Shown piece after piece: positions 35,787 through 62,841 of a DNA stretch of 64,000 nucleotides. The position numbers and the translations under genes were made by a program. The notes beneath the pieces were generated by a model. The model was not told where the DNA came from. It did not search any database and was given only the letters and a program-made list of their open reading frames with translations. Position 1 is the first letter of the stretch, and each line of letters starts with the position of its first letter. Origin of the DNA: Bacteroidales bacterium (lineage in GTDB: Bacteria; Bacteroidota; Bacteroidia; Bacteroidales; UBA932); the NCBI GenBank assembly GCA_017452265.1, contig JAFTMS010000033.1:18745-82744 (forward strand), in the 5' to 3' direction.

Positions 35787-36692
35787 ATGGCATCATCAAA
35801 GACTCAAGGATTGTTCTGCTATATGGAGCAGATCATCATGCTTTACCGCAATCGCGGACAGCACCGCACGTGCGAGACCTATGAGACCACATTGAACAGC
35901 TTCAGAAGATTCCGTGACGGCACAGATATTCCGCTTTCAGAAATCGATTCAGGCCTGCTCGAAGACTATCAGCAGCATCTGATGAGGCTCGAACTTTCTC
36001 CCAACACGATCTCCTTCTACCACAAGCATCTCCGTGCCGTCTACAACCGCGCCGTCGACGAGGGGCTTGTTGCCGACAGCCGCCCTTTCCGACGCGTCAG
36101 CACGTCCGTGGAGAAGACGGTCAAGCGCGCCGTCCCGCTGAATGTCATCCGGCGGCTGAAGTCGATGAAGCTCGCCCCCGGCTCGTCCGACGCCCTTGCA
36201 CGTGACATCTTCCTTTTCAGCTTCTACACCCGCGGCATGTCCTTCATCGACATCGCGTATCTCCGGAAGAAAGATCTCTGTGACGGCATACTTCGCTACC
36301 GCCGGCAGAAGACCGGACAGCTTCTGATGATGCGTTGGGAACCATGTATGCAGGGAATTCTCGACAAACATGCGTCCGTTCCCTCTTCGCCCTATCTTTT
36401 TTCCCTGATAAAGGACCCGTCCGGCGATGTCCGCCATCAGTATCAGAATGCCCTCTTCCTTGTGAACCGCCATATAAAGTCCCTGGGGCGACGTCTCGGC
36501 CTGGACCAGCCGCTTACATTGTACTGTGCGCGCCATTCATGGGCCAGCATCGCACGTGAAAACGGCATTCCGGTCTCAGTGATAAGCGAAGGAATGGGAC
36601 ATGGCTCCGAAAAGACCACGCAAATCTATCTTGCCTCGCTGAAGACGGAAGTCATCGACAAGGCGAACAGGAAGATACTCAGGCTGCTGTGA
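35787..36692 (+). CDS. Tyrosine recombinase, probable DNA invertase of the capsule promoter
   Basis: 301 aa. N-terminal SAM-like core-binding domain (about 10-95), C-terminal catalytic domain with Arg149 (FYTRGMSFID), Lys in RRQKTG, Arg in YCARHSWAS, His in MGHGSEKT and nucleophile Tyr281 (TTQIYLASL). It is the Bacteroidales integrase type found beside invertible capsule promoters. Its 3' end is 28 bp from the left 23-bp inverted repeat of the switch ahead of upxY, so inversion of that segment is its likely job. Adjacent tRNA-Val is not duplicated elsewhere in the window, so island integration is less likely. Confidence 0.9.
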   Translation: MASSKTQGLFCYMEQIIMLYRNRGQHRTCETYETTLNSFRRFRDGTDIPLSEIDSGLLEDYQQHLMRLELSPNTISFYHKHLRAVYNRAVDEGLVADSRPFRRVSTSVEKTVKRAVPLNVIRRLKSMKLAPGSSDALARDIFLFSFYTRGMSFIDIAYLRKKDLCDGILRYRRQKTGQLLMMRWEPCMQGILDKHASVPSSPYLFSLIKDPSGDVRHQYQNALFLVNRHIKSLGRRLGLDQPLTLYCARHSWASIARENGIPVSVISEGMGHGSEKTTQIYLASLKTEVIDKANRKILRLL

Positions 36693-36720
36693 CAATGGAG
36701 GGTTTCGTGAGGGGAAGGTG

Positions 36721-36743
36721 TCAATCTTCTGTGAGAAGATTGA
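36721..36743. repeat. Left inverted repeat of the invertible promoter segment
   Basis: 23 bp whose reverse complement is exactly 36883-36905. Each arm is itself nearly palindromic (CAATCTTCT / AGAAGATTG) around an asymmetric centre, GTG here and CAC on the right, which would make recombination directional and yield inversion. Confidence 0.9.
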
Positions 36744-36882
36744 CTTTTAAAACGGATGTCTGTAATACAGGATGTTACAGACATCCGCAATGCGGAAATC
36801 CCTTATGGAGGCGTGTGAGGTCAAGATTTTCCTCCTCGGATGTAGCAATATTCAATATTAATTCCTATTTTTGCAGATGACA
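36744..36882. promoter_or_regulatory. Invertible promoter segment (139 bp)
   Basis: Contains TATTTTTG at 36866-36873, pointing right toward upxY, so the sequenced orientation is ON; no good -33 TTG is present. It also holds a 13-bp perfect hairpin CGGATGTCTGTAA / TTACAGACATCCG (36753-36787). Read on the minus strand that hairpin is followed by TTTT, so after inversion it would face upxY as a terminator while the promoter faces the recombinase. Confidence 0.8.
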
Positions 36883-36905
36883 TCAATCTTCTCACAGAAG
36901 ATTGA
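36883..36905. repeat. Right inverted repeat of the invertible promoter segment
   Basis: Exact inverse of 36721-36743; lies 15 bp upstream of the upxY ATG. Confidence 0.9.
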
Positions 36906-36920
36906 TATCTCCAGTGTGAT

Positions 36921-38329: not shown

Positions 38330-38458
38330 AGCCTTCAGTTCGAGGAAGGCATCGAAAAGACTGTGCGCTGGTATCTCGACAACCAGGAGTGGATGGACAA
38401 CATAACTTCTGGGGAGTATGAGAAGTATTATCAGGAAATGTATAATGGAAAAAACTAG
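38330..38458 (+). pseudogene. 3' remnant of dTDP-glucose 4,6-dehydratase (rmlB)
   Basis: In one plus frame the sequence reads SLQFEEGIEKTVRWYLDNQ and then [20 protein letters not shown] before TAG, the typical C-terminus of RmlB. Upstream of about 38330 the similarity stops abruptly and there is no start. The remnant overlaps the fcl start by 14 bp, so an rmlB-fcl order once existed here. Confidence 0.75.
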
Positions 38459-39386
38459 TAAAATTTATGTGGCAGGGCACCGCGGAATGGTGGGCTCTGC
38501 CATTGTGCGTGAATTGAAGCGCCATGGATATGAGAATATCATCACCCGTACACATAAGGAACTTGACCTGACAAGACAGGCCGAAGTCGAAGCCTTCTTC
38601 CAACAGGAGAAACCCGAGTACGTCTTCCTGGCAGCAGCCAAGGTCGGTGGCATCATAGCCAACCAGACCGCACTGGCCGACTTCATGTACGACAACATGA
38701 TACTCGAAATGAACGTCATCCATGCAGCATGGCAGAACGGCTGCAAGAAACTCGAATTCCTCGGTTCCAGCTGCATCTACCCTCGCATGGCCCCACAGCC
38801 TATGCCCGAGAGTTGCCTGCTCACTTCCGAACTCGAAAAGACCAACGAGGCATACGCACTGGCCAAAATCAGCGGCCTTAAATACTGCGAATACCTCAAC
38901 TGCCAGTACGGCACCGACTTCATCAGCCTCATGCCCACCAACCTCTACGGCCCCAACGACAACTACCACCCTGAGCACTCCCACGTGCTCCCGGCCCTCA
39001 TCCGTCGTTTCCACGAAGCCAAAGAGGCAGGCCTTGCCGAAGTCACCTGCTGGGGAGACGGCAGCCCGCTCCGTGAATTCCTCTATGTGGACGACCTTGC
39101 CAACCTATGTGTCTTCCTCATGAACAACTACAGCGGCAACGAGACCGTCAATGCCGGCACCGGCAAGGAAATCACCATCAAAGGCCTCACAGAACTCGTG
39201 GCCAAAGTAGTAGGCTTCACAGGCGAAATCAAGTGGGACACCACCCGTCCTAACGGCACCCCACGCAAGCTCCTCGACGTATCCAAAGCCAAATCACTTG
39301 GCTGGACCTACAAGACCGAGCTCGAAGACGGCATCCGTCTGGCCTACGACGACTTCCTCCACAACCCAATGCGAGCAGAACGATAA
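38445..39386 (+). CDS. fcl: GDP-L-fucose synthase
   Basis: 313 aa. Converts GDP-4-keto-6-deoxymannose to GDP-L-fucose (epimerase and NADPH reductase). Rossmann motif [11 protein letters not shown] (11-17), GSSCIYP, and catalytic YALAK in [14 protein letters not shown] 38445 starts the family-typical N-terminus; the longer frame adds residues read from the rmlB remnant. Precedes gmd, giving the de novo GDP-fucose pair. Confidence 0.96.
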
Positions 39387-39403
39387 TAAAACCTCCAAAA
39401 TAG

Positions 39404-40522
39404 ATGAAGAACATAGCCCTAATAACAGGTGTTACCGGACAAGACGGTTCCTACCTCAGTGAGTTTCTCCTTGAAAAAGGATATGATGTGCACGGCATCA
39501 TCCGCCGAAGTTCAGTAGATTACCGCGAACGAATCGCCCATCTTGAAGGCACCCCTAACTTCCACCTCCACTATGCCGACATGTCCGACTCCATGTCGCT
39601 CGTCAAGCTCGTGGGCAAGGTACAGCCAACCGAGATCTACAACCTTGCGGCCCAGTCCCACGTGCAGGTATCCTTCGATGCCCCTGAGTTCACAGCCGAT
39701 GTCGATGCCGTAGGCGTTCTTCGCCTCCTCGAAGCCGTCCGCACCAACCACCTGGAGAAGACCTGCAAGATCTATCAGGCATCCACCTCCGAACTCTACG
39801 GCAAGGTAGAAGAGGTTCCTCAGAACGAGAACACCCCATTCCACCCTTACTCACCATACGCTGTAGCCAAGCTCTACGGCTTCTGGATTGTCAAAGAGTA
39901 TCGTGAAGCCTACAACATGTATTGCTGCTCAGGTATCCTCTTCAACCACGAGTCTGAGAGAAGAGGCGAAACCTTCGTAACTCGTAAGATCACCCTTGCA
40001 GCAGCACGTATCGCCCAGGGCAAGCAGGACTGCCTCTATCTCGGCAATATGGACTCCCTTCGCGACTGGGGTTATGCCAAGGACTATGTAGAGTGCATGT
40101 GGCTCATCCTCCAGCAGGAGAAGCCAGAGGACTTCGTCATTGCAACTGGCGTGCAGCACTCAGTGCGTGAGTTCACCCAGCTCGCTTTCCACCATGCCGG
40201 CATCGAACTCAAGTTTGAAGGCAAGGACATGGACGAAAAAGGTATCTGCGTTTCCGTCATCAACCCTGCCAACGAGCACCTCATCGGCAAGACCCTCGTA
40301 GCCGTGTCCGAAGACTTCTATCGTCCAACAGACGTAGTCAACCTCTGGGGCGACCCAACCAAAGCCAAGGCCAAGCTCGGCTGGAATCCACAGACCACCT
40401 CATTCGAACAGCTCGTCGAGATCATGGTAGAGCACGACATGGCCAAGGTAGCAGCCGAAGATGTGGCATCAAGGGTGCGCACCAACCTTGCTGAATACCT
40501 CGAAAAGGGAATCGTGAAATAA
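39404..40522 (+). CDS. gmd: GDP-mannose 4,6-dehydratase
   Basis: 372 aa. Makes GDP-4-keto-6-deoxy-D-mannose, the substrate of Fcl. Cofactor motif [22 protein letters not shown], catalytic YxxxK in [11 protein letters not shown], and [18 protein letters not shown]. 17 bp downstream of fcl. Confidence 0.97.
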
Positions 40523-40531
40523 AACACATCT

Positions 40532-41752
40532 ATGAGCAAGGCAATAGAGAAGAAGTACATACTTCCGTTCATACTTGTTACAAGCCTCTTCCTTTTATGG
40601 GGGCTTGCCAACAATATGACAGATACATTGTTGGCCGCTTTCAAGCGCATCATGGATATGACTGACACGCAGACCAGTCTTATCCTTTCTGCTTTCTACG
40701 GCTCCTACTTTTGTTTTGCTATACCAGCCGCACTCTTTATCCGTAAGTACAGTTATAGAGCCGGAGTTATACTCGGACTTGTCCTGTATGCGATAGGTGC
40801 TCTTTTATTTTACCCGGCAGCCCAGGCTGCAAGCTACGGCTTCTACCTGATTGCCATATATATAATGGCTGGCGGATGCTCTGTACTCGAGACCACAGCC
40901 AACCCTTATATCATGTCTATGGGTATCCCCGAGACAGCTACCCGCAGACTCAACATTGCCCAGTCTTTCAACCCTGTCGGCAGTATTGCCGGTATTTTAG
41001 CCAGCAAGTACCTCATACTGGATAATATATCTCTATATTCTGTGAGCAAGACATATACTGCTTTAGGGTGCTTACTGCTGCTTATCATAATAATGATGCT
41101 TTTTGCTAAAATGCCTCAGGGACGAGATGCTGAAGCAAACGGGTCTCTCAAGGCCACCCTTTCCCGTCTCATTCACAACAAGCGCTATGTATATGGCGTC
41201 GTTGCCCAATTTTTCTATGTTGGAGCACAAGTTGGAGTATGGTCATATACCATCCGGATTGTGATGCAGGAGATGAATGTCCTGGAAGCACAAGCAAGTG
41301 ATATATTCCTAATAAGTATGGTTGCATTCTGCATGTCACGGTTCTTCTATACATGGTTGATGAAGTGGGTGAAACCAACTAAACTTTTGGCTGTATCCGG
41401 AGTTTTGTCAATGGCTTGTTCTGTTGTAGTGGCTTGCTTGGAAGGCAATGGAATACTGATGGTCGTTGCGCTAGTTCTCATAAGTCTCTTTATGAGTCTG
41501 ATGTTTCCTACAATCTATGGTACAGCCTTAGAAAGCATTACTGCCGGATCTTATCCGGACGACTCCAAGATAGCCGCCAGTATCCTTATCATGTCAATTC
41601 TAGGCGGTGCCTTGATACCTTCTTTGCAAGGTCTCTTGTCTGATGCGACAAGTATTTATGTGTCATATCTTGTGCCGGCATTTTGCTTTGCAGTAGTGCT
41701 ATGTTACGCAATCAGTGTTATACGAGATGAAAAGATACTGTCAAAGAATTGA
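40532..41752 (+). CDS. FucP-like sugar/H+ symporter (MFS)
   Basis: 406 aa, about 12 TM helices. LFLLWGLANNMTDTLLAAFK and the GGCSVLETTANPYIMSMG segment are characteristic of the L-fucose permease (FHS) family, whose members also carry other sugars. Inclusion of an importer in a capsule operon beside gmd/fcl suggests scavenging of free fucose or a similar sugar for the polymer. Its 3' end overlaps the mutarotase gene by 26 bp. Confidence 0.88.
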   Translation: MSKAIEKKYILPFILVTSLFLLWGLANNMTDTLLAAFKRIMDMTDTQTSLILSAFYGSYFCFAIPAALFIRKYSYRAGVILGLVLYAIGALLFYPAAQAASYGFYLIAIYIMAGGCSVLETTANPYIMSMGIPETATRRLNIAQSFNPVGSIAGILASKYLILDNISLYSVSKTYTALGCLLLLIIIMMLFAKMPQGRDAEANGSLKATLSRLIHNKRYVYGVVAQFFYVGAQVGVWSYTIRIVMQEMNVLEAQASDIFLISMVAFCMSRFFYTWLMKWVKPTKLLAVSGVLSMACSVVVACLEGNGILMVVALVLISLFMSLMFPTIYGTALESITAGSYPDDSKIAASILIMSILGGALIPSLQGLLSDATSIYVSYLVPAFCFAVVLCYAISVIRDEKILSKN

Positions 41753-42062
41753 GTTGCCGGACAATCAGGAACTGATAGAACAGTATATTGATGTACACAA
41801 GAATGTTTGGCCGGAGATAATAGAAGGCCAAAAGGCTGTCGGTATAATCCAGATGCAGATATTCGGATTGGGTAGAAGTTTCTTCATGATATGTGACACT
41901 ATAGATTCTTTTGACTGGGAACGCGATATGATGAGGTTGGCAGAAATGCCTAGACAAGCAGAATGGGAGGCTTATGTGTCTCAGTTTCAGGGATGTGACT
42001 CCAATATGCTGTCGAAAGAGAAATGGCAATTGATGGATATGATTTTTGACTCTAATCAGTAA
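41727..42062 (+). CDS. L-rhamnose/L-fucose-type mutarotase (DUF718)
   Basis: 111 aa. Interconverts sugar anomers. RYCQRIELPDNQELIEQYID, VHKNVWPEI and WQLMDMIF fit the RhaM-like family; the conserved His in DVHKNVW is the expected acid/base. ATG 41727 lies inside the permease gene's 3' end; a GTG four codons earlier is unlikely. The overlap with the permease gene supports a shared sugar substrate. Confidence 0.85.
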   Translation: MKRYCQRIELPDNQELIEQYIDVHKNVWPEIIEGQKAVGIIQMQIFGLGRSFFMICDTIDSFDWERDMMRLAEMPRQAEWEAYVSQFQGCDSNMLSKEKWQLMDMIFDSNQ

Positions 42063-42065
42063 TTT

Positions 42066-43316
42066 ATGCCTAAAAAAGTTTTTGTTTCAGGATGTTATGA
42101 CCTTCTGCATAGCGGACATGTTGAATTCTTTCACCAGGCCTCGCAGTTTGGTGATCTATATGTCGGTATAGGATCTGATGCTACCTATTTAGAGTATAAG
42201 CACCGCAAACCTATGTTTCCACAAGAGGAGCGTCTCTTTATGGTACTCAACATCAAAGCAGTCAAGGAGGCCTATATAAATGAAGGAAGCGGTGTCATCG
42301 ACTTCATCCCAACACTCGATATCGTGAAGCCAGATATTTTTGTCGTCAATGCTGAAGGGGGCAGTCAGGCTAAGCGTCAACTCTGTGAGGATAGGGGCAT
42401 CCAATATATCGAACTGGAGCGCACCCCACATGCCGGCCTCCAAGCCCGCAGTTCCAGCAGCCTCAAAGCTGCATTGAACCAAGAGCAACCAATGGCCGCC
42501 AATAGCCAAAAGCCAACAGCCAATAGCGCGATTCCAACAAGGTTGGATCTCGCCGGCACCTGGATCGATCAACCCTACGTCAGCCAGCACCACCCCGGAT
42601 GGGCACTCACCATCTCCTTGGAACCCACCTTCGAAGTGCGCGACCGTTGTGGCCTCAGCACCAGCACCCGCAAGATGATCCAGAAGATCTGGCCTATGAA
42701 GCTCCCCAAGATGGATCCCGAGATGCTTGCCCGCTTGGTCTTCTGCTTCGAGAACAACCCCGAGCGCGAAGACGGGCTCATCTCTGGAGCACAAGACGCC
42801 ATCGGCATCTGCGTCCCCGGCCTCTGCCGTCACTATTACGACAATAACTTCTGGCCAAAGAAGATAGAGAGTACCACCGACGAGATGACCCTCCGTTTCC
42901 TCGAAGAACACCTCGTTATGGTACCCCTCGAACCTCGAGCCCTCGGCTGCAGTGTGGTAGAAGGCAAAGACATCACCCCATCCAAGGTCAAAGCCCTTGC
43001 CGATGCTGCCGATGCCTGCTGGAGCGCCATCATGGCCAAAGACCTTACCGCCTTTGCAGCAGCCTACCGAGCCTCTTTTGAGGCACAGGTATCCATGTTT
43101 CCGGGAATGGTGCATCCCACATACCTTGACCACCCCGAAACAGACGGCAGCTATATAGCCGATGCCATAGCACATTATAGTGCTATGCCCGAAGTCCTTG
43201 CTTGGAAGATGCCCGGAGCAGGAGGTGGCGGATACCTTGCTTTGGTCGTGGAAGATGCCAAGGCATTTGTGAAGAAACATCCAGAGGCGTTTGAGTTGAG
43301 GATTAGAAGGGAATAA
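42066..43316 (+). CDS. Cytidylyltransferase-like / GHMP-kinase-like fusion protein
   Basis: 416 aa. Residues 1-135 form a nucleotidylyltransferase domain with HxGH (His15/His18 in DLLHSGHVEFF) and an RSSSSLK element matching the ISSTxIR motif. A low-complexity linker (about 140-155) is encoded by 7-bp repeats. From PTRLDLAG (157-164) to PGAGGGGYLAL (about 383-393) it resembles GHMP sugar kinases such as the kinase half of Fkp, though the ATP loop is unusual (RCGLSTSTRK). It likely phosphorylates and activates a sugar taken in by the neighbouring permease. Substrate and nucleotide are unknown. Confidence 0.75.
   Translation: MPKKVFVSGCYDLLHSGHVEFFHQASQFGDLYVGIGSDATYLEYKHRKPMFPQEERLFMVLNIKAVKEAYINEGSGVIDFIPTLDIVKPDIFVVNAEGGSQAKRQLCEDRGIQYIELERTPHAGLQARSSSSLKAALNQEQPMAANSQKPTANSAIPTRLDLAGTWIDQPYVSQHHPGWALTISLEPTFEVRDRCGLSTSTRKMIQKIWPMKLPKMDPEMLARLVFCFENNPEREDGLISGAQDAIGICVPGLCRHYYDNNFWPKKIESTTDEMTLRFLEEHLVMVPLEPRALGCSVVEGKDITPSKVKALADAADACWSAIMAKDLTAFAAAYRASFEAQVSMFPGMVHPTYLDHPETDGSYIADAIAHYSAMPEVLAWKMPGAGGGGYLALVVEDAKAFVKKHPEAFELRIRRE
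42498..42527 (+). repeat. 7-bp tandem repeat in the fusion protein linker
   Basis: Four units GCCAATA, GCCAAAA, GCCAACA, GCCAATA plus GC. Because 7 is not a multiple of 3, gain or loss of a unit would shift the frame between the two domains. Confidence 0.75.
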
Positions 43317-43318
43317 TG

Positions 43319-43350
43319 ATTGTCATCCCGAACTTGTTTCGGGATCTGTA
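43319..43350 (+). repeat. Dispersed GTCATCCCGAA palindromic repeat
   Basis: TCCCGAA-cttg-TTTCGGGA palindrome inside the widespread GTCATCCCGAAC...GGGATCT form, starting three bases after the fusion gene stop. Read through, it encodes the typical VIPNLFRDL string. Confidence 0.7.
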
Positions 43351-43405
43351 CAACCCGTTTCAGCATCTGCCCCAACCGTCAACTGTCAGAACTGTAAGAA
43401 ATTCA

Positions 43406-43630
43406 ATGACAAACTCCGACAACTGGCAAACCAACTTCGAAGCCCTCGAGGCCCATGTAGCCCAGACGGGACACTTTCCTAACAAGCACACCAAACTGAA
43501 CAACTGGTGTCGTTATCAGCGGAAAAGGATAAAAGCTGGGACAATGCCTATAGAACAGAAAGTCCTGTTTGAAGCCTTGGCATCCAGCCGTTCGAACGAA
43601 CATACGGGAGGGAGGAATAAGAAAAATTAG
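43406..43630 (+). CDS. Small helicase-associated-domain-like protein
   Basis: 74 aa. WQTNFEALEAHVAQTGHFPN and LNNWCRYQRKRIKAG match the layout of a single helicase-associated (HA) repeat (W..F..L......GH.P......L..W...QR). Such stand-alone domains may bind nucleic acid. The start is ATG 43406, after the repeat; the longer frame only adds repeat-derived residues. It ends in a basic tail (GGRNKKN). Role unknown. Confidence 0.6.
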   Translation: MTNSDNWQTNFEALEAHVAQTGHFPNKHTKLNNWCRYQRKRIKAGTMPIEQKVLFEALASSRSNEHTGGRNKKN

Positions 43631-43708: not shown

Positions 43709-44203
43709 ATGAAACGTCAAGTGTTTTTTAGTTTTCATTATGATAGGGATGTTTGGAGAGCTTCTCAAATTAGAAATATGGGAAAAGTGGATAATAGTTC
43801 TACTTTTAGCGATAATGATTGGGAAGAAGTAAGATATAAGTCTGATGCTAAGATAAAGGAGTGGATAGATAGTCAATTGGCTATGCGTTCTTGTTTAGTT
43901 GTTCTTGTAGGTTATGAAACATCTCAGCGCAAATGGGTTAAGTACGAGATTGAACAAGCAATGAAATTACGCAAAGGGATTGTTGGTATTCGAATAAATC
44001 GCTTAAAAGACAGAAAAGACAATCAAGACCCCATGGGAAGTAACCCTTTTTATAACATCTTAACGTCATCAGGCAACAGATTGTCGAATTATGTGAAACT
44101 ATTCGAATCTGGCTATAGCACAAGTACATATGTTTATGATGATATAAAGAATAACATCGAAAGTTTAATAGAAGATGCTATTTCTCATAAGTGGGATTAC
44201 TAA
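43709..44203 (+). CDS. TIR-like domain protein (ThsB/MTH538-type)
   Basis: 164 aa. VFFSFHYDRDVWRASQIRNM is the start of the TIR-like family (PF08937/DUF1863) that includes Thoeris ThsB, followed by SCLVVLVGYETSQRKWVKYE with the candidate catalytic Glu80 in KWVKYEIEQA. Such proteins make NAD-derived signals or act as NADases on phage infection. First gene of an AT-rich three-gene cassette between sugar-nucleotide genes and wzx; the next start is 23 bp away. Confidence 0.85.
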   Translation: MKRQVFFSFHYDRDVWRASQIRNMGKVDNSSTFSDNDWEEVRYKSDAKIKEWIDSQLAMRSCLVVLVGYETSQRKWVKYEIEQAMKLRKGIVGIRINRLKDRKDNQDPMGSNPFYNILTSSGNRLSNYVKLFESGYSTSTYVYDDIKNNIESLIEDAISHKWDY

Positions 44204-44226
44204 ATTTAACTCAGCTACCGCAGGTT

Positions 44227-44751
44227 ATGAATAAGTTTGAGTATTCTGAAGATGACCGCTTGTATCTCCAAATGATGCAAGACAATATTTCACGCATGGC
44301 CTCTAATAGTGCTAACTGCAAAACATGGACAGTCACTATTGTAGCAGCATTCCTTGCCATTGGTTGTGGAGTAGATAAACTGAATGGTTGGATTGCTTTG
44401 GCGTTTATTCCAATCGTAGTTTTCTGGTATTTGGATACCTTTTATTTGCATTTGGAACGTGGAATGAGGAATCGGCAAAAGGATTTTCTGAATAAGGCAA
44501 AAGAATTATTATCTCTGAACACCAATGCGGCAGATGAACAAGTAATAGATGACTATAATAAAGCACTATTCCAGTTTGCTCCGTTAGTCTCTGTTGAAGA
44601 AGATAAAACAAAAGGTATCGTTTCCACAACAGACAGATTCTTTTCCAAGTCGATAGCTCCTTTTTATGGTAGTATTGCCATTTGTGTGTTAGTTGTCTTA
44701 TTGGTACTTAATTGGGAACTATTACTCCAATTGTTATGCTGTTCAGATTAG
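44227..44751 (+). CDS. Three-TM membrane protein of the TIR cassette
   Basis: 174 aa. After a soluble N-terminus (SEDDRLYLQMMQDNISRMAS) come TM1 about 33-49 and TM2 about 55-72, a charged cytosolic stretch with RGMRNRQKDFLNKAKELLSL, and TM3 about 148-170. No family recognised; the layout resembles 2TM effector proteins of signalling-based defence systems. ATG 44227 is chosen over an in-frame GTG within the upstream gene. Five bp separate it from the second TIR gene. Confidence 0.75.
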   Translation: MNKFEYSEDDRLYLQMMQDNISRMASNSANCKTWTVTIVAAFLAIGCGVDKLNGWIALAFIPIVVFWYLDTFYLHLERGMRNRQKDFLNKAKELLSLNTNAADEQVIDDYNKALFQFAPLVSVEEDKTKGIVSTTDRFFSKSIAPFYGSIAICVLVVLLVLNWELLLQLLCCSD

Positions 44752-44756
44752 TATAG

Positions 44757-45890
44757 ATGTCCATTTTTTATCGTAAACAGAATCATCGGGATTTGCTCTT
44801 TAAGAAGGACTTGCATCTTAAAAGACGTACAAAGGAGATTTTGGAAGTTCTTCCTGCTGAATATGGATTCGATGACTTTTTACAGGCTTTTATAGATTGC
44901 TACCCGGCAGCTTGGGAAGACATCATCAATTATTGTACTGAGAGAAGGAGTGATTTTTATCGCAGAAGGAATAAGGGACTTCGTACAGTGCCTTTTTATT
45001 CACCACCTTTGTATTTGAAAAGAAACTGTGGTTGGAATAGAAGACGTATTGAAGTATTGTCTGATGGGGAACGACAGAACAGATATAACAAACTGGTAGA
45101 AAAGGGGCAGAAGAAAAAATCACAACGGGATACGAGAATAATGAAGAATCTGGAAAGAGTACAGGAAGTAACCCCTTCGTATGTGAGAGATTTGATTACT
45201 GCTTATTTCCAGACTCGGGAAAAAGATACCTTGAATATCAATGCTCGTTATTTGATTTTATTAGAGGCCTCTCAGTTTCATAGTAAAGAGACCATTGAGT
45301 TTCTTCACTGTGTAGCAACTTGTGATAAAAATGATGAACTTCGGGATATAGCCTATCAATCATTAGTCCGAATGGGTGAACATCCTTGGAAGGTAAGGAA
45401 AAGAAAAGGTCGTCAGAAGGCTTCTCAATTGAAAAGAATCGACCTTCAGAAAAATCCTACAGAGTTGTTACAGTTGATTTATATCAATCAACAGGTGCTT
45501 TATCAAAGTTATGACGTATTCCTTTCGCATAGTTCCTTGGATGTAAAAGAATTGCTGGAGTTAAAACAAACATTGAACAAGCAAAATTTAGTCGTTTATA
45601 TTGACTGGATAAATGATGAGGTTATGCTGAATAGACCAAATCAGAATGAAGATACATGGAATGCATTGGAATTGCGAATGCGTCAATCAAAGATGCTTTT
45701 GTATGTGATGACTGACAATAGCATCTGTTCACCATATACAGAAAGAGAGGTCAATTATTTTAAGAGTCTTTCCAAACGTGTAGTAGTATACCAACCGCAT
45801 GGAACTACGTTGACCAAGCCAGAATATATTAAGAACTGTGAATCATTGAATTTGGAGCAACTAAGGAATATATCTAACATATATGTCTAA
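44757..45890 (+). CDS. Large protein with C-terminal TIR domain
   Basis: 377 aa. Residues 1-245 form a basic, mostly helical region not recognised, including HEAT-like text (SKETIEFLHCVATCDKNDEL). The C-terminal TIR domain starts at about 250 (YDVFLSHSSLDVKELLELKQ), with YIDWINDEV, LYVMTDNSICSPYTEREVNY (candidate catalytic Glu329 or Glu331) and a final beta strand RVVVYQP. Likely effector or sensor of the cassette. Its end overlaps the wzx start by 8 bp, so the cassette is transcriptionally embedded in the capsule operon. Confidence 0.85.
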   Translation: MSIFYRKQNHRDLLFKKDLHLKRRTKEILEVLPAEYGFDDFLQAFIDCYPAAWEDIINYCTERRSDFYRRRNKGLRTVPFYSPPLYLKRNCGWNRRRIEVLSDGERQNRYNKLVEKGQKKKSQRDTRIMKNLERVQEVTPSYVRDLITAYFQTREKDTLNINARYLILLEASQFHSKETIEFLHCVATCDKNDELRDIAYQSLVRMGEHPWKVRKRKGRQKASQLKRIDLQKNPTELLQLIYINQQVLYQSYDVFLSHSSLDVKELLELKQTLNKQNLVVYIDWINDEVMLNRPNQNEDTWNALELRMRQSKMLLYVMTDNSICSPYTEREVNYFKSLSKRVVVYQPHGTTLTKPEYIKNCESLNLEQLRNISNIYV

Positions 45891-47406
45891 TAGTATAATA
45901 GCAAAAAATACGATATTTTTGTATATAAGGATGCTGCTAACAATGGCAGTAACTCTATATACTTCACGTGTAGTGCTTGCAACATTAGGTGTAGAAGATT
46001 ATGGTCTTTACAATGTTGTGGGTGGAGTTGTTACGATGTTCGCTTTTTTAAATGGAACTCTATCCGGAGCTACCCAACGTTTTATTACATATGAGATAGG
46101 AGTTGGAAATCAAGAAAACTTGAATAGAGTGTTTAATACCGCTATGTGTATACATTGGATGGTAGCTATATTAGTATTTGTTTTAGCTGAAACAGTAGGT
46201 TTATGGTTTTTGTATAACAAATTAGTCATATCCGCAGAGAGGCTTACAGCAGCTCTTTGGGTATATCAGTTTTCTGTCCTTTCTACCATGGTGCTAATAG
46301 TGAGTTTGCCTTATAATGCTTGTATTATTGCCCATGAAAAGATGTCAGCTTTTGCGTATATTAGTATTATAGAAGTGCTCCTTAAATTGGTGATTGTATA
46401 TTTGCTGAGCTTGACTAAATATGATAAATTGATTGTTTATGCTTTTCTTCTTTTCTTAGTACAGCTACTTATAAGAGGTATATATACCATTTACAGTAAA
46501 CGAAATTTTGAAGAAACTCATTATTCGTTAAAGTTAGACAGATCATTGGCTAAGGAAATGGTTGGTTTCACAGGATGGTCTTTTTTTGGTGGTTTAGCAA
46601 GTGTTGGAATGGGCCAGGGTATAAATGTTTTGTTAAATGTATTCTTCTCTCCAGTAGTGATAGCAGCCCGTGCTATAGCTCAACAGGTTGAAAATGCAAT
46701 TTTTAGCTTTGTGCAGAATTTTCAAACGGCAATGAATCCACAAATAATGAAAAATTATGCATCTAACAATTTACAGCAAATGCATAATCTTGTTTTTGCA
46801 AGTTGCAGATATTCGTATTATTTGTTGTTTATGATTGTTTTGCCCATCGCTCTTGAAACTCCTTTCATTCTATCCGTGTGGTTAGAAGAAGTACCAGAGT
46901 ATACTATTTCATTTTTGCGAATAACAATGTTGATAGGATTGGTCAATAGTCTATCCACTCCATTAATGACAGCAGCTAATGCCTCTGGACATATCAAGAA
47001 ATATCAAATTGTTGTCGGGACTATTCTTATATTGATAGTGCCGATAGCTTATGTGGCTCTTAAGCTTGGTGGTACACCAGAATCGGTATTATGGATATAT
47101 TTGGGAGTTGTTGTTTTGGCACAATGTGCTCGTTTAATGATAGTGAGAGGCCTTGTGAATCTTTCAATAAGAAAATTTTGCGTATCAGTCATAATTCCTG
47201 TGTTGAAGGTGAGTTTAATAAGTGTTATACTTCCTGTTTTTATTAACCATTATTTAGGAGATGCTATTATCAATATTCTGGTAGTTTGTTTAGTTTCTGT
47301 GCTATCAGTGCTTTTGACCATTTATTTTATTGGAATTAATCAATCAGAACGTGAGTTTTTAAATCAAAAAGTCAAAGTTGTTCTACAAAGGTTGAAAATT
47401 AAGTAA
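45883..47406 (+). CDS. wzx: Wzx-type polysaccharide flippase
   Basis: 507 aa, 12-14 TM helices, MATE/MOP superfamily. FLYIRMLLTMAVTLYTSRVV and GVEDYGLYNVVGGVVTMFAF are typical of O-unit flippases of Bacteroidetes. Moves lipid-linked repeat units across the inner membrane for Wzy. Its start overlaps the TIR gene by 8 bp and its stop overlaps the next ATG. Confidence 0.93.
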   Translation: MSNSIIAKNTIFLYIRMLLTMAVTLYTSRVVLATLGVEDYGLYNVVGGVVTMFAFLNGTLSGATQRFITYEIGVGNQENLNRVFNTAMCIHWMVAILVFVLAETVGLWFLYNKLVISAERLTAALWVYQFSVLSTMVLIVSLPYNACIIAHEKMSAFAYISIIEVLLKLVIVYLLSLTKYDKLIVYAFLLFLVQLLIRGIYTIYSKRNFEETHYSLKLDRSLAKEMVGFTGWSFFGGLASVGMGQGINVLLNVFFSPVVIAARAIAQQVENAIFSFVQNFQTAMNPQIMKNYASNNLQQMHNLVFASCRYSYYLLFMIVLPIALETPFILSVWLEEVPEYTISFLRITMLIGLVNSLSTPLMTAANASGHIKKYQIVVGTILILIVPIAYVALKLGGTPESVLWIYLGVVVLAQCARLMIVRGLVNLSIRKFCVSVIIPVLKVSLISVILPVFINHYLGDAIINILVVCLVSVLSVLLTIYFIGINQSEREFLNQKVKVVLQRLKIK

Positions 47407-48389
47407 TGAATAAAAGAATAGAATATTTTGAGTTCTTAAGAGGTGTAGCCATTCTGATGGTTATAGCTATCCATACATATACTTCTGGTAATTTTACATC
47501 TGTAGAAGGGACAATAAGTATAATTACTCGTCAAACATTGAATTGTGCCGTGCCTATTTTCTTGGCTCTTTCTGGATTTTTTTTAGGGCGAAAGAAATTT
47601 GATAGCAAACAAGCCATTATAACTTTTTGGAAAAAACAAATACCGAAAGTGTATGTCCCTTGTATAATTTGGTCTTTGCCGATATTAGCTTTAGATATTC
47701 GTTCGGGGGGGGTAATTCTTTGGAAACAAGTCGTTTATATGGCAATATGCGGTTTTAGTATTTATTATTTTATAGCTCTGATAATTCAGTACTATCTTCT
47801 GTTGCCATTACTACAAAGACACTTGAGACGTAATCTTATAATCTCTATTATCCTATCAGCAATATCAGTATGCATTGTAACCTACACAAATTCTGTGAAA
47901 GCAATGTCATTACCTCTCATTTTTTATGCAGGTCCTTTTGTCGTCTGGTTTGTTTTTTATATGTTAGGGGTTTATTATTCACGTATTGAGAGGACATATT
48001 CGTTAAAGTGTTCTATATTTATAGTGTTATTAGGTTTTCTCTTAGAATGTATTGAAACATACCTTTTAAACACAAGATACACAGGTGGAGTTGGCATTAA
48101 ACTTTCATCTTTCATATATTCATATGGCATCGTGCTAATAGCATTGCATCCACAATCAGAGTCTCTATATAGAAAGAATATTTTAACTACCTTAATTGCA
48201 TATATTGGTAAAATATCCTTCAGTATTTACTTGATACATTGTTATTTCATAGCTATGGTAGATCGCGTTTATTATTCAACCTCGTGGTTGCTTCGATGGG
48301 CTTTAGTATCATTGATTACAGTGGTTTTTATAGTGTTCGCGAGAAAGATTCTACCTCAGAAGATTACTAGATATATTGGATTTTCATGA
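47406..48389 (+). CDS. Acyltransferase 3 family O-acetylase with poly-G tract
   Basis: 327 aa, about 10 TM helices. Start motif RIEYFEFLRGVAILMVIAIH holds the Arg and catalytic His of integral-membrane acyltransferases; it probably O-acetylates the capsule repeat. In-frame G8 at 47705-47712 (residues about 100-103): loss of one G gives GGG GGG TAA, gain of one reads on out of frame, so expression can be switched by slippage. Confidence 0.9.
   Translation: MNKRIEYFEFLRGVAILMVIAIHTYTSGNFTSVEGTISIITRQTLNCAVPIFLALSGFFLGRKKFDSKQAIITFWKKQIPKVYVPCIIWSLPILALDIRSGGVILWKQVVYMAICGFSIYYFIALIIQYYLLLPLLQRHLRRNLIISIILSAISVCIVTYTNSVKAMSLPLIFYAGPFVVWFVFYMLGVYYSRIERTYSLKCSIFIVLLGFLLECIETYLLNTRYTGGVGIKLSSFIYSYGIVLIALHPQSESLYRKNILTTLIAYIGKISFSIYLIHCYFIAMVDRVYYSTSWLLRWALVSLITVVFIVFARKILPQKITRYIGFS
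47705..47712 (+). repeat. Poly-G tract G8 in the acyltransferase gene
   Basis: Eight consecutive G in AT-rich coding DNA, in frame as sequenced; candidate slipped-strand contingency tract. Confidence 0.85.
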
Positions 48390-49669
48390 TAAATATAGTC
48401 AATAAGCAAGATTGTTGTGGATGTACAGCTTGCGTACAACGCTGTCCTAAACAGTGCATTTCGCTTCAAGGGGATGAGGAAGGTTTCTTGTATCCTAAAG
48501 TAAACGTTGATGATTGCATTGAGTGCGGACTCTGTGAAAAAGTATGTCCTGTAATTCACCCATACGAGAAAAGAATTCCACTTCATACTTTCGCTGCTAT
48601 CAATAATGATGAAGAGATAAGGATGCAAAGTTCCTCTGGAGGTGTTTTTACACTCATTGCAGAAAAAGTAATAGATGATGGTGGTGTCGTTTTTGGTGCA
48701 CGTTTCGATGAAAAATGGCAGGTAGTTTTAGATTATACGGAAACAAAGGATGGTCTGGCTGCTTTCAGAGGAAGTAAATATGTGCAAGCACGTATAGAGG
48801 ATACATATAAGCAATGTGAGAAGTTTTTGAAGGAAGAACGTAAAGTATTATATTCTGGCACTCCTTGTCAAATTTCTGGCTTAAAGCATTTCCTTAGGAA
48901 AGAGTATGATAATCTGCTGACAGTAGATTTCGTGTGTCATGGTGTTCCAAGTCCGAAAGCTTGGAGAAAATATTTGTCAGAACTCACATCTAAAGAGTTT
49001 GTTCAACAAATTTCGATGAGAGCCAAAAATCGTGGATGGAAAGATTTTTCTTTTAAGGTAGATTATGATAAAGATAAATCGGCTCTATCGTTTATCTCGT
49101 TGGCTACTGATAATGCATATATGAAAGCTTTTCTAAGTGACTTAATTCTTAGACCCTCGTGTCATTCATGTGTGGCAAAAGAATGTAGTTCAAATTCCGA
49201 TATTACAATAGCCGATTTCTGGGGAATATGGGAGGTGAATCCGGCCTTTTATGATGACAAGGGGACATCTGTAGTATTAATCCATAATCAAAAGTTAGAA
49301 GCATTCTTTAAAAACCTAAACCTCAGGTATTCTAAGACTTCCTATGAAGATGTAGTTAAATATAATTCTGCATTGGTCAGAAGTTCAAGACCCCATAAAT
49401 ATAGAAAGTTATTTTGGACGGAATTTGAAGAAACAAAAAGCTTCTCAAAATTAGTGTCAAAGCATACTTTCCCCAGAGGGTTACAGGCGATAAAATATGT
49501 AATCAAGATAATCCTGAAAAAGATAGTAGGGGGGGGTAAAATAAATGCTTTGTCACTTCCATCTCGCATTAATAAGCAAGAAATTAATAGTATTTACTTC
49601 CGCGAGAAGAGAAATAGTTGGAAGAATTATGAGGTTATCATAGAGCTTAAGATAATCAGTAATAATTGA
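48386..49669 (+). CDS. F420-hydrogenase beta-subunit-like Fe-S protein, poly-G tract
   Basis: 427 aa. Two N-terminal [4Fe-4S] motifs (CCGCTACVQRCP; CIECGLCEKVCP) then FrhB-like N and C domains (SSSGGVFTLIAEKVI; DFVCHGVPSPKAWRKYL). In capsule loci these sit beside pyruvyl transferases and are thought to reduce or help modify the polymer; the exact reaction is not settled. In-frame G8 at 49529-49536 (about residue 382) precedes a 42-residue tail; both frame shifts meet a stop within three codons. Confidence 0.85.
   Translation: MINIVNKQDCCGCTACVQRCPKQCISLQGDEEGFLYPKVNVDDCIECGLCEKVCPVIHPYEKRIPLHTFAAINNDEEIRMQSSSGGVFTLIAEKVIDDGGVVFGARFDEKWQVVLDYTETKDGLAAFRGSKYVQARIEDTYKQCEKFLKEERKVLYSGTPCQISGLKHFLRKEYDNLLTVDFVCHGVPSPKAWRKYLSELTSKEFVQQISMRAKNRGWKDFSFKVDYDKDKSALSFISLATDNAYMKAFLSDLILRPSCHSCVAKECSSNSDITIADFWGIWEVNPAFYDDKGTSVVLIHNQKLEAFFKNLNLRYSKTSYEDVVKYNSALVRSSRPHKYRKLFWTEFEETKSFSKLVSKHTFPRGLQAIKYVIKIILKKIVGGGKINALSLPSRINKQEINSIYFREKRNSWKNYEVIIELKIISNN
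49529..49536 (+). repeat. Poly-G tract G8 in the F420-hydrogenase-like gene
   Basis: Context TA-G8-TAAAATAA, identical to the tract at 59183. One G more gives TAA at once; one G fewer gives GTA AAA TAA. Confidence 0.85.
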
Positions 49670-49708
49670 TGTATTTTTTTTGTATTAAAAAGGGAAAGAC
49701 ATACTTTT

Positions 49709-50830
49709 ATGAAAGTAGGAATAGTTACTATGCCATTATGTGCTAATTATGGGGGAACTTTGCAGAATTGGGCTTTGCAACAAGTGCTGATTAAATTAGG
49801 ACATGAGCCCTTAACTCTTAGATTCCCTGTCGATTATCAGGGAATGTCTTCTTGTCGTTATTGGCTTAAGATTTTTCCATATCAGGTTGTTCGTTTCATA
49901 TATCATAAGATAACTGATGGTAAATGTGTGAAGCCTTTACTTATTGGTACATGGAGAAGGAATGTACAAGGCATGGAAGAATTTGTCAAAAGATATATAT
50001 CAACCACGGATTTCATAACAGATTTATCCATGGATGATGTTTATAAAAATGACCTTGAAGCCTTGGTTGTTGGAAGCGATCAGATATGGCGTCCAATAAT
50101 GTATGATGCTGCAAATTATTTCTTTTTTGGATTTGCAAAGAATCATGATATTATTAGAGTGGCTTATGCTCCTTCCATAGCGTTGGACTATTGGCCTTTT
50201 AGTAAAGAAACGACAATTCAACTAAGAGAGTTAGTAAGTAAATTTTCCGCTGTCTCTGTGCGTGAGGAATCTTCGGTTGAGCTTGTGAGAGAGAATCTTC
50301 ATATTGACGCACAATGGGTTCTTGATCCTACAATGCTGCTGAGAAAAGAAGATTATTTGTCATTATGTAAAGAATTGCCTCGAAATAAAGAACCTTTTGT
50401 TTTTGCATATATCTTGGATATGACAGAGGAAAAGCAACAAATGGCTGAAAAGATGGCGAAAGAGTATGGTTGTAAGATATTGTATCTTACAGCTGATAAG
50501 GTTAAAGCTGAAGATACAATAGAAAAATGGCTGGCTAACTTCCGTGATGCAGTTTATGTAGTAACCGATAGTTATCATGGTACAGTGTTTTCTCTAATCT
50601 TTAAAAAACAATTCTATTGTTTTTATAATGATAAACGAGGAAATGCACGTATGGATACTTTAAAGAAAATTTCAGGGGAAAATAATAGATTTATAAATAG
50701 AATGATTGATGAACTTAATCCTGATATTGAATATGAAAGTATAGAAAAGAATATAAATAGATTTCGTGAAGATAGTATTACTTTTCTTAAAAAAGCTTTA
50801 AATGAGAGTCAATCAAGTAGAAAAAAATGA
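49709..50830 (+). CDS. Polysaccharide pyruvyl transferase family protein
   Basis: 373 aa. PLCANYGGTLQNWALQQVLI, VVGSDQIWRP, and VVTDSYHGTVFSLIFKKQFY are the family's sequence marks. Adds a pyruvate ketal (or a related sugar transfer) to the repeat unit, giving a negative charge. Paired with the upstream Fe-S protein as usual in such loci. Confidence 0.9.
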   Translation: MKVGIVTMPLCANYGGTLQNWALQQVLIKLGHEPLTLRFPVDYQGMSSCRYWLKIFPYQVVRFIYHKITDGKCVKPLLIGTWRRNVQGMEEFVKRYISTTDFITDLSMDDVYKNDLEALVVGSDQIWRPIMYDAANYFFFGFAKNHDIIRVAYAPSIALDYWPFSKETTIQLRELVSKFSAVSVREESSVELVRENLHIDAQWVLDPTMLLRKEDYLSLCKELPRNKEPFVFAYILDMTEEKQQMAEKMAKEYGCKILYLTADKVKAEDTIEKWLANFRDAVYVVTDSYHGTVFSLIFKKQFYCFYNDKRGNARMDTLKKISGENNRFINRMIDELNPDIEYESIEKNINRFREDSITFLKKALNESQSSRKK

Positions 50831-50834
50831 ACTA

Positions 50835-52007
50835 ATGAAAAAAATACTTTTTGTATTTCACGTTTCAACGATTGGTGGAGGTAGTTACTGTTTGCTTAAT
50901 ATTCTGAAATCGTTAGATAGGACAACTGTGAAACCATACGTGTTATTGTGTGAAAATGGTCCGCTTGTAGATGAGATAAAGAAGCTTGGTATAGAAGTTT
51001 TTTTTCTTAAGGATATGCGAATGGTACCTTATAATTGGAGTCTACTGACAAAGAGTGCTTTGATGAATACTTATCATATCAATCGTTCTTTTAAGGATTT
51101 TAGAAAAATTGTTTTAGATTTAGGTGTGGACATCGTTTATATAAATACCATGATGCTCTATCCTTATTTGAAACAAGCAAAGACTTTAAAGAAGAAGACA
51201 GTAATACATATACGCGAGCACTGGCCAGAAGGCGAGCATAAATGGCAAAGGGAGCGTGCTATAAAACATATTAAAAAGTATGCGGATCACATTGTTGCAA
51301 TCAATACATATAGTGCATCAATGCTTGAAGAACGTGCGAATGATGTAGTTGTTGTGTATGATTGGGTAGATTTTTCCGAGAGATATGAACCCATTTCTCT
51401 TAACAAGATCTTTCTTGAGGATGTATCTAAAAAGAAAATTTATCTGTTTACAGGAGGAATGGCAAGGATAAAAGGTGGATATCAGGTTTTAAAATGTTTT
51501 ACAGAAAAAATAAAAGGAGAAGATAAGCGTCTACTTTTTTTGGGATACGATATGGATAGACCGACAGGAGGTTTTAATGGATTTCTTAAACGCTTTCTTT
51601 TTAAATTAGGCTATGAGATTAACGAAATGAAAATACGTCAGATTGTAGCTAATGATAAGAGAATAAAATGTATTCCGGCAACCTATAAGTTGGTTGATAT
51701 TATTAATCAATCGTATTGTATGTTATCATACTTCACGAAACCGCATGCTAATTTAGCGATGGTGGAGTGTTTAATCTTGGGAACTCCTGTTGTTGCAGCA
51801 TGGACAGAAGAGGCAGATGAATACTCGCAAGGAGCTAGTCATGTCTGTTTTTTCGAAATGAATAATATGGATTCTTTTGCAGAAGCAGTATTAAGAATGG
51901 ATGAAAAACTACAAGATAACAATCCAAAGCCTGCAAAAGAACTAGAGGTTCTTTTTTCTCGTGACTATAATGTAGATAATTTAAATAATCTTATTGAACA
52001 GATATAG
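50835..52007 (+). CDS. Glycosyltransferase family 4
   Basis: 390 aa GT-B enzyme. N-terminal ILFVFHVSTIGGGSYCLLN binds acceptor; the C-terminal part holds GGMARIKGGYQVLKCF and MVECLILGTPVVAAW with the donor-binding Glu. Start ATG 50835 follows AAAAAAATGAACTA; the upstream in-frame extension overlaps the pyruvyl transferase gene. Sugar specificity unknown. Confidence 0.88.
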   Translation: MKKILFVFHVSTIGGGSYCLLNILKSLDRTTVKPYVLLCENGPLVDEIKKLGIEVFFLKDMRMVPYNWSLLTKSALMNTYHINRSFKDFRKIVLDLGVDIVYINTMMLYPYLKQAKTLKKKTVIHIREHWPEGEHKWQRERAIKHIKKYADHIVAINTYSASMLEERANDVVVVYDWVDFSERYEPISLNKIFLEDVSKKKIYLFTGGMARIKGGYQVLKCFTEKIKGEDKRLLFLGYDMDRPTGGFNGFLKRFLFKLGYEINEMKIRQIVANDKRIKCIPATYKLVDIINQSYCMLSYFTKPHANLAMVECLILGTPVVAAWTEEADEYSQGASHVCFFEMNNMDSFAEAVLRMDEKLQDNNPKPAKELEVLFSRDYNVDNLNNLIEQI

Positions 52008-52031
52008 TCCAGTTACATAACTCCTTTCATT

Positions 52032-53123
52032 ATGAAGCTTATTATTATTGCTTTCCTATACTTTGCCATAATGTATCTTTATAGAAAAAAAGTAACCCCC
52101 TATGCGTACTTTTTGATTGTTTTCATTGTTATGGCCTTTCAAAGTAATGTTACGGGTGATTTTTACTCTTATGCAGAAAGCTTTTATAAATACAATGTCT
52201 TTAGAGTAAATTTTAACGACAACGAGGTTGGGTGGTATTGTCTTAATCGACTGTTCGGATTCTCTAATTTTTTTGTCTTCTATTTCTTTGTTGCTTTGTT
52301 TGAATTTTATGTTCTTTCTAAGTTTACAAAGAAATATGTCCCAAAGGTATTATGGATATTACCTGCCGTTCTTTTCTTTTTTGATATGAACATGATGTTC
52401 TTCCAAATGAAGGGACTACGTCAAGCACTTGCTATTGAATTAGGTGTCTTAGCTATTTATACAATAGGGAGAGGAGTATCTTTGAAGAATATTATTTTAT
52501 CAATGGGAATATCTGCCTTAGCCTTTTTAATGCATCAAACAGGTTTGGTCGTGTTTGCTTATGTATTGTTTTATATTATATTTGAAAAATTGAGACTACT
52601 ATACTTCAATATTAAAATAGGAGCCTATTTATTATCTATAGCTGCAGTTGTGCTCTTTTACTCGCTATATGTGTCAAAAATATATTTAGTGGAAACTATA
52701 CAACCAATTTTGCTGCAATTGGATCTTGGAGGATTAGAAGGGTATTTTGGCGATTTAGGAGAGGCAAGCTATAATATTTTAATAGATGTGGTAAAAGGTT
52801 ATTTTGTATTCTATATCGCTTATAGTTTGAAATATACATATGGAATGCAAAGATATATCACAATGCTTTGCTTAATAGGTGCGTTCCTTGATATGTTCCT
52901 ATTTGGTATGGGAAATCTTTATAGAGTTCCTTTATTCTTAACGATTTATGGTATTTTTGTCTATCCGAATGTAGTCAATATACTTTGGCACAATAGAAAA
53001 AGAGTTGAAGCTTTGGCTTTTTTAGTCCTTTCAATTGCATATGCAGTGAGGACTTTTGTTGCAATTTCTATGAGAGGAAACCCCGATATGTTAGATACTT
53101 ATCAATTTTCTTTTGGATTATAA
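52032..53123 (+). CDS. wzy: EpsG-type Wzy polysaccharide polymerase
   Basis: 363 aa, about 10-11 TM helices. FQMKGLRQALAIELGVLAIY is the EpsG-family signature loop, and DFYSYAESFY resembles the first periplasmic loop. Polymerises repeat units in the periplasm. Placed centrally among the glycosyltransferases. Confidence 0.88.
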   Translation: MKLIIIAFLYFAIMYLYRKKVTPYAYFLIVFIVMAFQSNVTGDFYSYAESFYKYNVFRVNFNDNEVGWYCLNRLFGFSNFFVFYFFVALFEFYVLSKFTKKYVPKVLWILPAVLFFFDMNMMFFQMKGLRQALAIELGVLAIYTIGRGVSLKNIILSMGISALAFLMHQTGLVVFAYVLFYIIFEKLRLLYFNIKIGAYLLSIAAVVLFYSLYVSKIYLVETIQPILLQLDLGGLEGYFGDLGEASYNILIDVVKGYFVFYIAYSLKYTYGMQRYITMLCLIGAFLDMFLFGMGNLYRVPLFLTIYGIFVYPNVVNILWHNRKRVEALAFLVLSIAYAVRTFVAISMRGNPDMLDTYQFSFGL

Positions 53124-53199
53124 GGGGATAAAGATATGTTGAGTGCTTACCTGTTTTCTTCGATATACAATATTTTTTCTTGAACTAATTTTAATAAAT

Positions 53200-62810: not shown

Positions 62811-62841
62811 TATCGCATTATGTTTGCATATAGTTCTGGAT

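Follow-up and report, generated by a model that had tools for sequence, protein, structure and literature searches.

Here we describe a three-gene cassette from a Bacteroidales bacterium (assembly GCA_017452265.1, contig JAFTMS010000033.1), found in a stretch of 64,000 nucleotides (positions 18,745 to 82,744 of the forward strand) that is referred to below as the window. The cassette occupies positions 43709-45890 of the window, inside a capsular polysaccharide locus, and encodes two different TIR proteins (g1 and g3) on either side of a small membrane protein (g2). Our results suggest that the trio is probably a defence module that signals through TIR proteins in the manner of Thoeris, with a small protein of the PDC-M50A family, which has three transmembrane (TM) helices, as effector instead of ThsA. 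Judged by its gene neighbourhoods, g2 takes the place of the effector in such a system, because most of its relatives adjoin a TIR gene and the g3 family changes partner between g2 and ThsA.

The cassette and its membrane protein

The first gene, g1 (43709-44203, + strand), encodes a short ThsB-type TIR protein of 164 residues, as judged from its open reading frame (ORF) and family matches. It is followed by g2 (44227-44751, + strand), which encodes a three-TM protein of 174 residues if read from its ATG, and by g3 (44757-45890, + strand), whose 377-residue product joins an N-terminal domain of about 240 residues to a C-terminal TIR domain. A GTG at 44191 is a possible alternative start for g2, and relatives start near the ATG at 44227. 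The ORF coordinates agree with an earlier note on this DNA, made from the sequence alone, which had placed the three genes on one strand with gaps of 23 and 5 bp. All frames are intact, the TIR and putative effector genes lie together as they do in Thoeris, and the spacing suggests a shared transcript. The same note had described the cassette as AT-rich, and its G+C content is indeed 0.360 compared with 0.535 for positions 1-35000, 0.502 for 38418-43316 and 0.334 for 45883-55000. By this measure the cassette is close to the variable block of the capsule locus and unlike the upstream genes or the first 35 kb.

The g2 protein has hydropathy peaks at residues 31-49, 56-74 and 143-161, the two early helices and one late helix that had been predicted. 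It matches the unpublished PADLOC candidate family PDC-M50A (1e-23), and all four PDC-M50A models are matched by 88/88 rows of an alignment (A3) of the window protein with 87 of the 89 listed g2 references (L082, long, and L101, short, were omitted). In this alignment R23, N27, S28, F66, D70 and E77 (g2 numbering) are invariant and M1, Q18, I21, M24, K32, W34, L69 and S140 nearly so; at a hydropathy threshold of 1.4, three TM peaks are seen in 62/88 rows, two in 25/88 and four in 1/88. A PHROG of unknown function, phrog_19896, is also matched (1.4e-22). No Pfam family matches g2 above its cut-off, Pfam gives no SIR2, SLOG, macro or caspase match, and there are no solved-structure relatives at E values up to 1. 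Two identities that the earlier note proposed checking for this protein were not borne out. SLATT was rejected, with no Pfam SLATT match for the window protein at E up to 1, none for the 88 rows at E up to 0.1 among the matches listed (25 of 35 families), and an hhalign probability of 1.1% against a small set built from SLATT_3/SLATT_1 proteins. Membership of a capsule biosynthesis family likewise found no match, either in the Pfam scan or among the same 25 of 35 families listed.

Relatives of g2 are sporadic close to the window and widespread beyond it (surveyed locus stretches are given L-numbers and genomes G-numbers). One is present in 10/393 genomes of the order and, within the family, in 3/149 and 8/378 genomes, one of the eight being a weak match in an 824-residue frame; within the genus only the genome of the window and G1139 match. 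A scan of genome contigs (84,980 species according to the tool description) confirmed 240 g2 relatives, and the best 80 of these 240 were kept; by title they come from Bacteroidota, Bacillota, Cyanobacteria, Acidobacteria, Campylobacterota, an archaeon and others. Viral contigs gave 11 relatives. Profiles called g2 in 98 of the 101 loci L017-L117 (none in L026, L065 and L104), and 90 copies were scored over L027-L117, with two in L105 and with L065 and L104 left out for want of a g2 call.

A TIR-labelled gene on the same strand and within 200 bp directly adjoins g2 in 71 of these 90 copies, and one lies within two genes in 73, whereas control genes five or more places away carried a TIR label in only 6 of 471 cases. 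The association holds in genome contigs (61/79 immediately adjoining, 63/79 within two genes) as in viral contigs (10/11 immediately adjoining), and TIR-labelled genes flank g2 on both sides in 21/90 copies. Some contigs recur (L070 and L108, for example, have the same neighbourhood), so the copies are not all independent. The labels came from profiles iterated on these same loci and were afterwards checked with Pfam: 88 of the 92 labelled neighbours (those of up to 450 residues) gave 63 matches to ThsB_TIR, 56 to TIR_2 and 8 to TIR, counts whose overlap was not separated. When 37 of the 41 unlabelled neighbours were scanned, 3 matched TIR_2, and the labels therefore miss some TIR genes. The TIR genes adjoining g2 belong to several different classes. 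Mobile elements show the same arrangement. Among plasmids, 128 records match g2, 4 of them over at least 80% of the query, and in the three g2 plasmids examined (from Parabacteroides distasonis, a Klebsiella and E. coli) a TIR gene adjoins g2. Three phage records match, and the one examined, a 14-kb tailless Vibrio phage, carries in a row (L198:1299-2635) a gene noted as an integrase, a TIR gene noted as ThsB and a g2 relative.

The TIR proteins and their change of partner

Both TIR proteins are recognisable as ThsB, the TIR component of Thoeris. The g1 protein matches ThsB_TIR (PF08937) at 5.5e-26, the PADLOC models ThsB PDLC00433 (1e-71) and PDC-M50B (4.3e-59), the solved structures PDB 8wcf (5.2e-37) and ThsB1 9b7d (3.4e-17), and a PHROG of unknown function, phrog_6988 (9.4e-13). 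The g3 protein gives different and weaker Pfam matches, to TIR_2 (1.2e-6, residues 254-343) and ThsB_TIR (1.5e-4, residues 255-350), and matches PADLOC ThsB PDLC00425 at 1.2e-55 over residues 15-360. That each TIR domain keeps a candidate catalytic Glu, as the earlier note had claimed, was upheld. In g1 it is E80, within the motif WVKYE (WVRYE in the ThsB1 of the solved structure), and in g3 it is E331, which is invariant in 9/9 g3 proteins of alignment A4. When 88 TIR-labelled neighbours of g2 relatives were aligned, the sole column reported invariant was the Glu column, in a count that may ignore gaps. NCBIfam gave no match for g1 or g2, and g3 meets a retron-TIR model far below its cut-off. 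As for the N-terminal domain of g3, that of the relative in L063 matches HEAT_2 at 4.1e-6, just under the cut-off; the solved structures matched within this domain alone, of an E1 replication protein and a clusterin-associated protein (E 0.02-0.05), were judged to be chance matches, leaving no convincing solved relative.

To avoid a bias towards g2, a second survey was started from g3, with the genome of the window counted in both the order and the phylum sets. Among 393 genomes of the order there were 6 g3 matches, of which the 3 full-length ones (G000, G277 and G245) each have g2 next door. Among 395 genomes of the phylum there were 39 matches, again with 3 full-length: G000 and G709 have g2, and in G653 the contig starts just before a ThsB-type TIR gene and g3, with no g2 visible. 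Fifty plasmid records match g3, 28 of them over at least 80% of its length, and seven were examined, one per species. On four of these, from Lactococcus petauri, Enterococcus faecium, Mammaliicoccus lentus and Stenotrophomonas rhizophila, g3 is found together with ThsA and a second TIR gene; on two, from Campylobacter jejuni and Vibrio chagasii, it lies beside g2; and beside the Lactococcus lactis copy, which is near an insertion sequence element, neither g2 nor ThsA was found. The ThsA proteins of L. petauri and E. faecium were confirmed by Pfam (SIR2_2 and STALD), and the other two by tblastn (48% and 46% identity). The V. chagasii plasmid has two nearby g2 copies (L203:2974-7185), with g2 and g3 followed by a TIR-labelled gene, g2 and a ThsB-type TIR gene. 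In viral contigs, 110 stretches matched the g3 pattern (alignment A2) and 0 were confirmed.

A maximum-likelihood tree of 17 g3 proteins (12 with g2, 4 with ThsA and 1 of unknown partner) needs at least two changes of partner, and two also if the starred branches alone are used. In none (0%) of 200 bootstrap trees does either partner group fall on one side of a branch. With only four ThsA rows, two of which are near-copies, the count of swaps is a lower limit drawn from few sequences. If this interpretation is right, one TIR sensor lineage would have swapped its effector between the NADase-type ThsA and a membrane protein. Other proteins are found in the same position beside TIR genes related to the TIR of g3: a SLATT_3/SLATT_1 protein between TIR genes in L157 (2420-4907), another between a TIR gene and a short TIR-like frame of 60 residues in L159 (3546-5237), and a caspase-domain protein between TIR-labelled genes in L158 (4527-6467).

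The trio itself recurs outside capsule loci, a check that the earlier note had called for. In L030 (Bacteroidaceae, roe deer colon) a g1 relative (3e-85, 75.6% identical to g1 of the window), g2, a further ThsB-type TIR protein of 226 residues and a g3 relative (4e-87 with the N-terminal part of g3, 59.8% identity overall) follow one another on a stretch with no polysaccharide marker. L028 has g2, the 226-residue TIR gene and g3. Recognised by the N-terminal domain of g3, the pair g2 and g3 occurs in 8 of the loci L027-L117 (L027, L028, L030, L032, L034, L039, L063 and L093). L156 has the gene order of the window (ThsB-type TIR, g2, TIR), with a g3-type TIR that lacks the N-terminal domain, and in L155 this order is reversed. 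Between L028 and L030 the rate of nonsynonymous change (pN) is well below that of synonymous change (pS), at 0.041/0.223 for g3 and 0.107/0.353 for g2.

Proposed mechanism, capsule setting and alternatives

A signal-gated membrane effector is the most economical interpretation of the trio, given that g2 stands in the effector slot, has three TM helices and gathers its conserved polar residues at a single face of the membrane. An infection cue would be sensed by the TIR proteins, in the case of g3 probably through the N-terminal domain. By analogy with their families, g1 or g3, or both, would then convert nicotinamide adenine dinucleotide (NAD+) into a nucleotide signal, using the conserved Glu. 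This signal, or the assembled TIR itself, may act on g2 at the membrane face that gathers the conserved polar residues (R23, N27, S28 and K32, the last nearly invariant, where TM1 begins, and D70 and E77 where TM2 ends), which are predicted to lie on the same side of a TM1-TM2 hairpin. The g2 protein would finally oligomerise, permeabilise the inner membrane and halt the infected cell. The earlier note had one TIR signalling and either the membrane protein or the TIR fusion executing; the TIR neighbours of g2 and the partner change of g3 best support the membrane protein as the effector. If this is right, a widespread candidate family acquires a role and partners, a minimal signal-gated membrane effector becomes available for study, and the capsule setting would make co-regulation of phage entry barriers and suicide defence testable.

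The cassette lies between a block of sugar-nucleotide genes and a variable block that opens with a flippase gene. The nucleotidyltransferase-domain gene upstream (42066-43316, + strand; Pfam CTP_transf_like 1.8e-11) belongs to the polysaccharide locus and is separated from the cassette by a small ORF (43316-43630) with a helicase-associated (HA) domain; the flippase-like gene downstream (45883-47406, + strand; MatE 1.5e-4, below cut-off) shares 8 bp with the 3' end of g3. The capsule genes are preceded by a candidate invertible element (36716-36910) next to a tyrosine recombinase gene (35787-36692); the 28-nt inverted repeats of the element (36716-36743 and 36883-36910) are 93% complementary and 139 nt apart. 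The recombinase and repeats are consistent with a phase-variable promoter and lend sequence support to the phase-variable capsule operon proposed in the earlier note, but inversion itself was not observed. No + strand terminator-like site is listed between 41652 and 45680, but such sites are no commoner in the region (7) than among shuffled sequences (mean 7.1). No match to the Bacteroidetes-type promoter consensus was found just before g1, the 6 matches in the window all lying elsewhere. The cassette may be transcribed with the capsule block, and was probably acquired together with the variable, low-G+C part of the locus.

A capsule link was found in other genomes but is not typical. In one Bacteroidales genome (L017/L029), a nucleotidyltransferase gene 84% identical (blastp) to that at 42066-43316 is followed by a Panacea-domain gene, a small gene, g2, a ThsB-type TIR gene and polysaccharide genes including a flippase relative. 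In L154, where the link is probable, a TIR gene and g2, three genes apart, lie between Polysacc_synt_2 and UDP-GlcNAc 2-epimerase genes; L026 has a TIR gene without g2 on a stretch bearing polysaccharide genes. A scan with polysaccharide markers, which is descriptive and not a test of enrichment because the markers were partly drawn from L029, L154 and L026 themselves, gave matches in 8/116 loci (7 each in L017 and L029, 3 each in L154 and L089, 2 each in L026 and L101, and 1 each in L043 and L047). Markers lie on both sides of g2 only in L017/L029 and L154, those of L089 being all on one side, and there are none in L153 and L229-L232 (g2 of L230 was detected by one search only). The linkage that the earlier note called unusual is therefore real here and uncommon elsewhere, but it recurs. 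The upstream nucleotidyltransferase has matches in 19 of 61 congeneric genomes, and in 8 of these, not counting the genome of the window, the match is strong. The stretches around these 8, some of which stop at contig ends, gave no match to g1, g2 or g3 by blastp (TIR profiles were not run on them), and their gene order differs too much for an empty site to be defined.

Several other genes were observed in these loci. A KAP-type P-loop NTPase-like gene (56363-57763; Pfam 0.0015, just below cut-off) inside the capsule locus is possibly further defence-type cargo, and a SocA/Panacea antitoxin-domain gene with a small gene (62824-63695) lies at its far end; a Panacea gene and small gene also directly precede g2 in L029. 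A radical SAM set recurs beside TIR genes (L154:5278-7857, L026:9738-12311, L199:8004-10607 and L107:6932-9607), as recognised by Pfam in L154, by annotation in L199 and from inspection of the sequence in L026 and L107. The L107 and L199 copies are apparently one element, and the L199 record names one member of the set as a nucleotide kinase domain protein.

Several observations weigh against a signal-gated g2 effector. The g2 protein has no recognisable ligand-binding domain, which leaves the nucleotide-signal step unexplained. In 17/90 cases no labelled TIR gene is found within two genes of g2 (6 of these 17 copies lie close to the end of a contig), and a copy from the same genus (L231:9120-9560) lies between rubrerythrin-like and superoxide-dismutase-like genes, as read from the sequence, on a 12.6-kb stretch with no TIR-labelled gene. 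Outside the window the strict set of g1, g2 and g3 was seen in L030 alone, where an extra TIR gene accompanies it. Around the catalytic Glu, most g3 relatives carry Trp residues that are missing from the window protein and from the two relatives closest to it, and catalysis by g3 is for this reason less certain than catalysis by g1. Finally, changes of partner are rare rather than frequent, since the partner label is clustered on the g3 tree (2 changes against a shuffled mean of 3.7, with 10 and 18 of 500 shuffles as low).

Other explanations were considered. The TIR proteins may themselves be the killers, depleting NAD+ directly, with g2 as a membrane anchor, localiser or regulator; passages of one paper describe bacterial TIR systems that act by NAD+ depletion (PMC12847820), g2 is small and has no recognised enzymatic domain, and both TIR domains keep the candidate Glu. 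We consider this unlikely, as g2 takes the place of ThsA beside full-length g3 relatives and SLATT or caspase-domain proteins fill the same place beside related TIRs. Less probable again is activation of g2 by direct binding of assembled TIRs, with no diffusible signal. TIR domains do assemble into higher-order scaffolds, and g2 has no known ligand domain, but a common small molecule would account more readily than a single conserved protein interface for the several TIR classes found beside g2.

The position of the trio inside a polysaccharide locus, the overlap of g3 with the flippase gene and the lack of a listed terminator would fit a role in capsule synthesis or its regulation instead of defence. 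This role is very improbable, as no capsule family matches g2 among those listed, few loci carry markers and fewer still carry them on both sides of g2, the closest full relative (L030) is marker-free, and copies occur on plasmids and a phage. The sporadic distribution of g2 among the family genomes might suggest inert hitch-hiking cargo or a decaying remnant, an explanation to which we give the least credence in view of the three intact frames, the retained active-site positions and the low pN relative to pS among near relatives. A bolder extension of the signal-gated effector is speculative and in our view rather doubtful as a whole: that the trio represents an undescribed Thoeris type, in which two TIR proteins raise the alarm and a minimal three-TM pore or channel responds, sensing an NAD-derived signal through its invariant polar cluster at the membrane face, with no separate ligand domain. 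In this strain the module would be coupled to a phase-variable capsule operon, and intracellular immunity would be switched with the surface coat governing phage entry.

Comparison with known systems

In passages of two papers, bacterial TIRs are reported to make the ADP-ribose (ADPR) derivatives 3'cADPR, His-ADPR or N7-cADPR, which serve SIR2-SLOG ThsA, TM-macro ThsA or caspase-like effectors (PMC12847820; PMC11204291). No effector of these three kinds was found in the window. Type I Thoeris (SIR2-SLOG ThsA with ThsB) is the system whose cassettes are shared by full-length g3 relatives, together with a second TIR, on four plasmids; the window differs in having no ThsA and a three-TM protein as putative effector. 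A tblastn search with L. petauri ThsA matched L195, L196, L197 and L204 and did not match the window; a STALD search of the genome of the window gave no match, and neither did its control. Type II Thoeris (TM-macro ThsA) likewise pairs a TIR with a membrane effector, whose TM domains are proposed, in passages of the same two papers, to cluster and disrupt the membrane; g2, however, has no macro-domain match, three TM helices and only 174 residues. Type IV, defined here through passages citing Rousset et al. (PMC12847820), combines a TIR with a caspase-like protease. In L158 a caspase-domain protein does adjoin a g3-type TIR, but the putative effector in the window is different. TIR-SLATT neighbourhoods (L157 and L159) resemble the cassette in joining a TIR to a small membrane protein, SLATT being predicted to control membrane permeability (PMC9503650); g2 differs in matching no SLATT model among the families listed, with the low hhalign probability given above. 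Type III is mentioned in passing in a passage of PMC12390725; its definition, not found in the papers searched, may cover the effector described here.

The trio is hence Thoeris-like and not Thoeris proper, because there is no ThsA in the window. The closest catalogued arrangement is the PADLOC candidate PDC-M50 (M50A and M50B), for which the PADLOC listing gives no mechanism: g2 matches all four PDC-M50A models and the adjoining g1 matches PDC-M50B, and the window differs in adding g3, an N-domain TIR fusion that is itself scored as ThsB. The earlier note had not recognised the layout as a named system. This was correct in so far as a literature search retrieved no paper that uses the term PDC-M50, but g2 with a ThsB-type TIR is already a computational candidate in PADLOC. 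In summary, the parts of the cassette are partly catalogued as PDC-M50, and what is new here is the evidence for a swap of effector, the two-TIR architecture and the capsule setting.

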